Below, one piece after another: positions 42,493-49,987 of a stretch of DNA of 51,062 nucleotides (positions are counted from its first letter, which is position 1; every line of letters starts with the position of its first letter). Made by a program: the position numbers and the translations under genes. This stretch comes from Oscillospiraceae bacterium. Its GTDB lineage: Bacteria; Bacillota; Clostridia; Oscillospirales; CAG-272. A model generated the notes under the pieces. It did no database searches. It was not told the origin of the DNA and saw nothing but the letters and a program-made list of their open reading frames with translations. The DNA lies in assembly GCA_015063955.1 (NCBI GenBank), contig SVTD01000009.1, positions 1 through 51,062 of the forward strand, in the 5' to 3' direction.

Positions 42493-42524
42493 CAATTATA
42501 CAAAATGCAAATTTTGTATAATTG
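42493..42524. repeat. Perfect 14-bp palindrome (operator- or hairpin-like) in the coaX leader
   Basis: caattatacaaaat gcaa attttgtataattg. Confidence 0.75.
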
Positions 42525-42569: not shown

Positions 42570-43379
42570 ATGCTGCTTTGCGTAGATATCGGCAATACCA
42601 ATATCAATTTCGGTATTTTTAACGGCTCTGCAGACGAGCTTATTTTGAGCTTTTCAATTTCAGCTCATACCAGACGCACTGCTGACGAGTTTTCTCTCGT
42701 TATAAAGCAAATGATGCGCGAATCTCTTGGCGATGTTCTACCCGATTCATTTTGCATTTCCTCCGTGGTGCCCACTCTTACGCAGGACGTTTCATACGCC
42801 TGTAAAAAGATCTGCGGCTGTGAGCCCTTCGTTATTTCCTCGGGCACAAAGACCGGCTTTCCCATAAAAATCGACGTACAGTCTCAGCTCGGTGCGGATA
42901 TCGTTTCCAATACAGCGGCAGCTTTCAGATTCGTGGAGCCTCCCTTTGCCGTTATTGACGTTGGCACTGCAACTACCGTAACTGCAGTAGATTCGAAGGG
43001 ACAGCTTATAGGTACTGCCATCGCTCCCGGTGCAAATATTTCTTTTGAGGCTCTCAGGGACTCCTGTGCGCTTCTTACTGATATTTCATTCACAATGCCT
43101 GAATCAGTCATCGGTAAAAACTCTCAGGACAGCATCAGAAGCGGTATTTTTTACGGTCATATTTATATGATCGACGGATTTATAAGGCAGATCCGCTCAG
43201 AGCTTTGTGGGGACGGCGAAAAGCTTTCTCTGATAGGAACCGGCGGGCTTTCCGAAAAGATCCTTCCTTATTGTCGCAATAAATTTGAGATTATTCCCGA
43301 TCTTACGCTGAAGGGAGCGGCAGCGCTCTACTATCATAATACTCAGAATCGCCATCGCAATTATACAAAATCCGTTTAA
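42570..43379 (+). CDS. coaX: Type III pantothenate kinase
   Basis: LLCVDIGNTNINFGIF, FAVIDVGTATTVTAVDSKGQLIGTAIAPGANIS, LIGTGGLSEKI; RBS ggagg before ATG 42570. Confidence 0.95.
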   Translation: MLLCVDIGNTNINFGIFNGSADELILSFSISAHTRRTADEFSLVIKQMMRESLGDVLPDSFCISSVVPTLTQDVSYACKKICGCEPFVISSGTKTGFPIKIDVQSQLGADIVSNTAAAFRFVEPPFAVIDVGTATTVTAVDSKGQLIGTAIAPGANISFEALRDSCALLTDISFTMPESVIGKNSQDSIRSGIFYGHIYMIDGFIRQIRSELCGDGEKLSLIGTGGLSEKILPYCRNKFEIIPDLTLKGAAALYYHNTQNRHRNYTKSV

Positions 43380-43389: not shown

Positions 43390-43439
43390 CTCTTTTTCAT
43401 TTATTCGTTAATTAAGCCAAGGCTTGATTATATAAATTC

Positions 43440-43506
43440 AATACATGCGTTTTACCGTCGATGATTCGCGGAAAACAGCATCGGGGTTCAAGTCCCCGGA
43501 GGTATT
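43440..43506 (+). ncRNA. Candidate structured cis-regulatory RNA (three-way junction) enclosing the SD of the ECF S-component gene
   Basis: P1 aatac/gtatt; P2 atgc gtttt [a] ccg [t] cga tgat tcg cgg aaaac [a] gcat; P3 cgggg ttcaagt ccccg; SD ggagg at 43498-43502 in P3/P1 junction; ATG 43510. Folded by hand. Confidence 0.55.
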
Positions 43507-43509
43507 TCT

Positions 43510-44133
43510 ATGTCAAATAAAATTGACAGACGTTCTGTTACACAAAAGCTTGTGTATCTTTCGTTTTTAGCAGCACTTATCGTAGTTCTGCAGGTCCTCG
43601 CATCGTACATTAAGGTGGGAGCCGTCAGCATTTGCCTTGTTCTTCTCCCTATTGTATTCGGAGGAATGCTTTTCGGTTTGAATGCCGGCTTGTTTCTCGG
43701 TATTGTGTTTGGATTGCTCACCTTCATTCTTGGTCTTACCGGCTTTGATCCCGGAACACTGGCGATGATACAGTTCAAGCCCATTGAAACATTCGCTATC
43801 TGCGTAATAAAGGGTGCACTTGCAGGTCTCCTCTCTTCCCTTGCGTATAAAGGAATGTTCAAGCTTACAAAGAATAACGTTTATCTCTCGTCTTTAGTCG
43901 GATTTATCGTTGCTCCTGTTGTCAATACTTCGATCTATATTCTCGGTGTTGCATTATTCTTCAAGGATTTCTATCAATTTACCCAAAGCGGATTCGCTTT
44001 GATCGTTGCTATCTTTATAGCAATTATCGTTAATTTTATTTCTGAGTTTCTTCTTAACGTTATCTGCGGACCTCTCATTGCGCTGGCGGCGTCAAGAAAT
44101 AAGTCCGTAAAGAAGATCTTATATAAACAGTAA
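43510..44133 (+). CDS. ECF transporter S component (pantothenate PanT-like from context; substrate unproven)
   Basis: TQKLVYLSFLAALIVVLQVLASYIKVGAVSICLVLLPIVFGGMLFGLNAGLFLGIVFGLL; six hydrophobic helices; VAPVVNTSIYILGVALFF; adjacent to coaX. Confidence 0.8.
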   Translation: MSNKIDRRSVTQKLVYLSFLAALIVVLQVLASYIKVGAVSICLVLLPIVFGGMLFGLNAGLFLGIVFGLLTFILGLTGFDPGTLAMIQFKPIETFAICVIKGALAGLLSSLAYKGMFKLTKNNVYLSSLVGFIVAPVVNTSIYILGVALFFKDFYQFTQSGFALIVAIFIAIIVNFISEFLLNVICGPLIALAASRNKSVKKILYKQ

Positions 44134-44242: not shown

Positions 44243-44686
44243 ATGGCTGCACCCAAAGTAAAAGTCAGAGTTATGTACTCTACAAAGAAGGCTAAGGTTA
44301 AGACATTTGCCGAGGCTATCTCCCAGGCATTCAAGTGCCTTGCAAACCAGGTTCCCGGTGACTTCCCTTGCGATAAGGAAAGAGTTGTTTTCATCGGTAT
44401 GACAATTAAGGACGCTCCCGAAGACAAGCTTCGTCTTTTCTGCCGCGAGCTTACTCCTGCAAGAGCTCAGAACGTAGCTCTCTTCGTTGACGGACCTAAG
44501 GGAGACGACAACAAGGGTCTTAAGGTTATCATCGATACTCTCAAGGAGGCAGGCACAAACGTGCTTACAGATGATATCTACTACGTAAACGGCGGTCCCG
44601 CTATCTTCGGCGGTAAGAAGATCAGCCTTGAAGAGCGTACAGAGATCGTACGTTGGGCTGAGGGCATCGTTGCTAAGCTTTCCTGA
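44243..44686 (+). CDS. Small conserved-looking flavodoxin-like protein of unknown function
   Basis: MAAPKVKVRVMYSTKKAKVKTFAEAISQAFKC alternating beta/alpha pattern, RAQNVALFVDGPKGDDNKGLKVIIDTLKEAG; RBS ggagg. Confidence 0.55.
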   Translation: MAAPKVKVRVMYSTKKAKVKTFAEAISQAFKCLANQVPGDFPCDKERVVFIGMTIKDAPEDKLRLFCRELTPARAQNVALFVDGPKGDDNKGLKVIIDTLKEAGTNVLTDDIYYVNGGPAIFGGKKISLEERTEIVRWAEGIVAKLS

Positions 44687-49809: not shown

Positions 49810-49987
49810 AATTCACTTCGTGAATTGTGAAATATCTCCCTTTGGTCGATGTGAAATGAAATTTGCCCACATTCGCGTCAGCGAATATTTCACATTTGCA
49901 AAGCAAATATTTCACAGCGAAGCTATTTCACTTGCCCGAAGGGCAAATTTCGTTGAAAAAAGCACTTGCGAAAGCAAGTGCTTTTTT
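49810..49987. repeat. Array of short unrelated hairpins separated by an ATTTCAC/GTGAAAT linker, ending in a terminator hairpin
   Basis: attcacttcgtgaat, attcgcgtcagcgaat, atttgcaaagcaaat, agcgaagct, ttgcccgaagggcaa linked by atttcac; final aaaaagcacttgcgaaagcaagtgctttttt. Confidence 0.8.

Follow-up and report, generated by a model that had tools for sequence, protein, structure and literature searches.

The closest described counterpart of the RNA reported here is the pan motif (RF01749), a hairpin with two highly conserved bulged A residues that lies before panB, panC and aspartate decarboxylase genes and that its original authors suggested to be a dimeric protein-binding motif (PMC2864571). 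Since 2010 the motif has remained an orphan, with no ligand or binding partner reported in the literature searched, in which the work that followed the 2010 description consists of transcriptome papers that do no more than list pan upstream of panB. Recent genome-wide papers on ncRNA discovery do not refer to pantothenate in their main text, and a 2017 survey of 224 RNAs, which lay outside the search, may describe the panT leader. CoA is a conspicuous gap among riboswitch ligands (reviewed in PMC10043782; PMC9971707).

The leader analyzed here lies in a window of 51,062 nt (the whole stretch of DNA that was studied). Like THF and other vitamin riboswitches it stands before the gene of an ECF vitamin S-component, whereas unlike them it has no match in Rfam. 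No family matches the leader above threshold, no riboswitch family matches at E values up to 10, and a lax search returned only a T-arm fragment of the mascRNA and tmRNA models together with chance matches. The search for known classes that the original prediction had proposed (pan, THF and other vitamin motifs) thus placed the leader in none of them.

A conserved hairpin before panT

The gene downstream of the leader encodes an ECF S-component whose best-matching PDB chains are 4rfs (3.4e-8) and 6zg3 (6.1e-5), both from structures of ECF-PanT (PMC11521937; PMC7755397). No panB was found in the source genome (84% complete), consistent with dependence on pantothenate uptake. Given the solved ECF-PanT relatives, the neighboring coaX and the genome without panB, the protein is best assigned as PanT, the pantothenate uptake protein (Table 1). 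The conserved 147-aa protein encoded after panT (44243-44683, plus strand) has no match in Pfam or NCBIfam.

Table 1. Positions of the panT leader elements and adjoining genes in the window
Feature	Position	Strand	Basis or remark
coaX, type III pantothenate kinase, gene before panT	42570..43379	+	PF03309 1e-54
Upstream hairpin without bulged As, at the place of the second pan-like hairpin in tandem leaders	43409..43430	+	fold
P1 of the original prediction, probably not functional	43440-43444 with 43502-43506 (in 43440..43506)	+	
P2, pan-like hairpin	43445..43481	+	MFE fold, pair probabilities, covariation, CM match 33.7 bits
P2 basal helix AUGC/GCAU	43445-43448 with 43478-43481	+	
P2 mid helix GUUUU/AAAAC, 5 bp	43449-43453 with 43472-43476	+	
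P2 bulged A, 5' side, atop the 5-bp mid helix	43454	+	invariant column, 22 leaders; same place in pan hairpins
P2 apical helix and loop	43455-43471	+	
P2 bulged A, 3' side, base of the 5-bp mid helix (C-A-G)	43477	+	invariant column; same place in pan hairpins
P3, accessory hairpin with T-loop, CGGGG-UUCAAGU-CCCCG	43482..43498	+	closing G-C, loop rule, stem covariation
Shine-Dalgarno GGAGG of panT, touching P3	43498..43502	+	sequence; same adjacency in relatives
panT, ECF S-component, 207 aa	43510..44133	+	PF12822 (ECF_trnsprt) 1.3e-11

The original prediction had folded the 67-nt leader by hand into three helices, P1, P2 and P3, and both its coordinates and its base pairs agree with the sequence and with the minimum-free-energy (MFE) fold. 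The MFE of positions 43430-43530 is -29.2 kcal/mol (z -3.57; none of 200 shuffles was as low). All three helices, whose absence from the MFE fold had been named as grounds for abandoning the prediction, are present in this structure; with longer flanking sequence the core of P2 (P2a-P2c) and P3 retain pair probabilities of about 0.74-1.00, whereas P1 is weak. P2 folds, as predicted, into a 15-bp hairpin with bulges at A43454, U43458 and A43477. The two As, one on each strand and one at each end of a 5-bp helix, are invariant in related leaders, while the U43458 bulge is not kept in relatives because the apical helix is variable. The 51-kb window contains, both strands counted, 38 strict matches to the P2 geometry taken without conservation; the geometry alone is thus common by chance, and the case for P2 rests on conservation.

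Conservation was assessed among the leaders of orthologues of the window's panT, drawn mostly from metagenome-assembled genomes. The element common to these leaders is P2, comprising the basal UGC/GCA, the 3' bulged A, the 5-bp helix, the 5' bulged A and the variable apical helix, and both bulged As are invariant in 22 of 22 aligned leaders. Across 47 distinct leaders 93.6% of cells are paired, both sides change at 8 of the 11 pairs, and the covariation score is reached by none of 500 shuffles. The covariation is 0.457 for the true structure vs at most 0.184 for slid structures in the same 47 leaders. All the figures for these leaders lean towards the structure since the alignment was fitted to the model; an earlier alignment made with MAFFT gave the same picture. 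A lack of covariation or poorly conserved bulges would have spoken against the original prediction, and the comparison of homologous leaders came out strongly in favor of P2 on both counts. Six of the 30 panT-like loci in the first set have no recognized hairpin, which we count against the explanation favored below.

The hairpin precedes panT across the order Oscillospirales. A covariance model of the panT-leader hairpin (R1) run on 245 genomes of the order matches in 66, and each of the 30 R1 loci examined has a PanT-like ORF directly downstream and an adjoining coaX. When a degenerate hairpin pattern was run against GTDB genomes, at least 117 sites were found. Among the matches listed, the downstream ORF is PanT by HMM in 112 of the 114 that were readable, the two other sites also encode PanT by tblastn, and in 89 of 117 CoaX is encoded no more than 2-2.5 kb away; the matches listed include Faecalibacterium prausnitzii, Flavonifractor sp. 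An82 and Intestinimonas butyriciproducens. In each genome that has two bona fide intergenic matches, both are upstream of PanT paralogues. Outside the order, two of 250 sampled genomes of the phylum match, both inside coding sequence. At loci L068 and L211 the ORF after the leader is PanT-like with an N-terminal cysteine-rich extension that resembles a zinc ribbon (MQQNPFRCNLCGGKIEF...VCDSCGTKQ).

P2 and P3 are conserved at the Shine-Dalgarno, P1 is not

The basal GCA of the hairpin is followed after 0-1 nt by GGAGG in all 117 matches listed, the spacing range being part of the scan pattern, and unselected loci show the same 0-1 nt spacing with rare exceptions (e.g., L249). Invariant unpaired As and a near-fixed site beside the Shine-Dalgarno of the same gene throughout an order are not expected of an unregulated structural hairpin that sets only basal translation or mRNA stability, and we regard such a passive role as very unlikely.

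In the original prediction the switch was a three-way junction in which P1 closes over the Shine-Dalgarno. P1 does form in the MFE structure of 43430-43530, but its pair probability is 0.06-0.12 once longer flanking sequence is included, the 5-bp match occurs in the window alone among 14 related P3-bearing leaders, and the partner strands are not conserved. P1 was accordingly dropped as a mask of the Shine-Dalgarno, and a junction switch of this kind is most improbable.

P3 fared differently. Its 5-bp stem, its TTCAAGT loop and the position of GGAGG are as originally described, and the hairpin is real and conserved: the closing G-C is present in 28 of 28 P3 hairpins, the stem pairs covary, and all 26 of the 7-nt loops follow the T-loop rule U-N-N-R-A-N-Y. 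In the window's family P3 sits between P2 and the Shine-Dalgarno, while outside this group it is usually absent and P2 stays, so that P3 is an accessory element. T-loops often form tertiary or ligand pockets, and the docking partner of the P3 loop is perhaps a bulged A. With the T arm of tRNA the hairpin shares the closing G-C, the 7-nt U-N-N-R-A-N-Y loop and its invariant first U and fifth A, whereas it differs in standing alone in an mRNA leader. The matches of P3 to the T arm of the tmRNA and mascRNA models might be taken to mark a tRNA remnant or tRNA-like element, but no tRNA or tmRNA was found, and the many relatives that keep P2 without any P3 refute this reading, which is scarcely credible.

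In 52% of 158 leaders the 50 nt upstream of the hairpin form a more stable fold than shuffled versions do, vs 12% in a control stretch. A terminator-like call at 43481-43499 in the window's leader consists of P3 followed by the Shine-Dalgarno with no T-run, and a terminator was rejected.

Comparison with pan RNAs

In pan hairpins the 5' bulged A lies above a 5-bp helix and the 3' bulged A below it. The first hairpin has the geometry of the panT hairpin in 19 of 20 RF01749 loci, as do many of the second hairpins. A typical pan core reads GG-GCAGU-A-UCC..GGA-ACUGC-A-CC and a typical panT core GC-GYYGU-A-UCC..GGA-ACRRC-A-GC. One clear discrepancy concerns the base pair beneath the 3' bulged A, which is G-C in 26 of 26 distinct pan hairpins and C-G in 47 of 47 panT leaders. 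This difference is the reason for reporting the element as a pan-related variant and not as a member of RF01749.

Both this pair and the failure of the single hairpins to detect each other would fit an unrelated RNA class that resembles pan by convergence: a covariance model of pan hairpins run over 220 kb of panT loci matched none of the main panT hairpins, and R1 finds none of the pan hairpins. The sole match of the pan-hairpin model in the 220 kb was, however, to a second hairpin upstream in the panT leader of L017, which led us to test for tandem copies in panT leaders. An additional upstream hairpin that shares the geometry is present in 17 of 163 panT leaders vs 3 of 721 control stretches, and the upstream copies in L017 and L024 bear the pan-type G below the bulge. 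Furthermore, the Rfam pan model aligns end-to-end with tandem panT leaders: it scores 31.8 bits for L184 (E 0.1 across all families) and 29.8 bits for L204/L017 (E 0.003 for the genome concerned), the better score still being below the RF01749 gathering cut-off of 36.2 bits. Both forms occur in genome G248, where panB follows a pan-like tandem match (32.8 bits) and panT a single hairpin. The tandem copies, the shared pathway, these sub-threshold full-length alignments, the pan-type G of the upstream copies, the identical 5-bp spacing of the bulged As and the similar core (GCNGU-A-UC..GA-ACNGC-A) all argue against convergence, which we consider quite improbable.

Thus the window's leader resembles RF01749 in its two bulged As at the ends of a 5-bp helix and in the pantothenate gene downstream, and some panT leaders are tandem as in pan. 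It differs in several respects. Firstly, a panT leader usually has one hairpin whereas most known pan RNAs have two in tandem, and the upstream hairpin in the window is without bulged As. Secondly, the panT hairpin abuts the Shine-Dalgarno whereas pan RNAs abut a terminator, and the gene that follows is panT and not panB, panC or the aspartate decarboxylase gene. Finally, one clade of panT leaders has an added T-loop hairpin. With one hairpin, a C-G pair and no match in Rfam, the element in the window does not formally belong to RF01749. The broader part of the original prediction, a vitamin-linked cis-regulatory leader at the ribosome-binding site and related to pan, is well supported by the conservation of P2, the putative PanT gene and the bulge geometry.

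In canonical tandem pan loci the 5' arm of the terminator is complementary, by eye, to the 3' edge of hairpin 2 (e.g., CGGAAGG/CCTTCCG in L039). At the RF01749 loci L034, L039, L040 and L051 this pairing makes a plausible antiterminator, and several of these loci precede a Rossmann-type gene (DUF2520-like, by eye) instead of panB. A pan RNA is also present in the genome of B. subtilis.

A candidate translational operator and its sensor

Taken with the gene downstream, the structure and position of the hairpin suggest that the leader probably acts in cis as an operator of panT translation, with a single pan-type hairpin as its basis, and represses uptake when pantothenate or CoA is in ample supply. 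P2, stacked in the window's clade beside P3, would form the core of the operator. Under such replete conditions a factor would recognize the two bulged As and hold the hairpin folded (the direction of repression is assumed), and the folded hairpin would keep the 30S subunit off GGAGG so that no PanT is produced. If the vitamin runs short, the hairpin would be left unbound and be opened by ribosomes, restoring uptake. The canonical tandem pan RNAs may use the same bound state to free the terminator that lies upstream of panB, panC and related genes; a stabilized hairpin in such a leader would favor termination, giving the same sign of control. A single-hairpin variant of pan that acts on translation before an uptake gene would extend the class from synthesis to transport, in common gut bacteria.

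As to the factor, a protein repressor appears to have a slight edge over direct binding of a small molecule, given the few invariant nucleotides and the dimeric protein-binding motif suggested in the first description (PMC2864571). CoaX is absent from 3 of 64 pan-bearing genomes, of which two are 97-98% complete (G100 and G152); as an RNA-binding sensor CoaX is therefore at least not general. The same two genomes, in which CoaX is no obligatory partner, are compatible with a direct riboswitch in which P2, in the window's clade together with P3, binds pantothenate, a pathway intermediate or CoA without protein. The tight link to one metabolite pathway and the retention of the T-loop hairpin in one clade also favor such a riboswitch, but a 30-37-nt hairpin in which two As and their flanking pairs are invariant looks more like a protein site, as the original authors of pan had proposed, and we judge direct binding possible if on the whole unlikely. 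In its most economical form the hairpin of about 37 nt, alone or with the T-loop hairpin, would be a minimal RNA that senses pantothenate or CoA directly, and the tandem pan RNAs would be its dimeric form, a rather unlikely proposal. Since CoA is missing from the reviewed riboswitch ligands a direct sensor is nevertheless the more exciting possibility, and such a hairpin, if real, would be the missing CoA/pantothenate riboswitch. For identifying the sensor, protein or not, the panT leader offers a handle in that the RNA is short, has one obvious output and lends itself to two point mutants.

Other features of the window are given here as observations. A perfect palindrome, AATTATACAAAATGCAAATTTTGTATAATT, lies before coaX (42494-42523); additional half-sites occur at 43359 and 43378, upstream of panT, and the 13-mer AATTATACAAAAT has three copies in the 2.07-Mb genome, all at the coaX-panT locus. 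When up to 2 mismatches are allowed, the palindrome is present in 97 of 192 genomes of the family, usually once per genome. It lies beside unrelated genes in other genera, and we therefore do not claim it as a pantothenate operator; an operator, a dif-like site or another function are candidates. Proteins similar to the 147-aa ORF after panT (MKMRVLYSTGNKK...) adjoin the palindrome in other genera (L270, L277). A Gut-1 RNA (RF01706), a small RNA whose function is unknown and which was at first detected in human gut samples alone, lies at 49882-49955 on the minus strand (66.5 bits), and a weaker Gut-1 match is found downstream of panT in L028 (3150-3226, minus strand).
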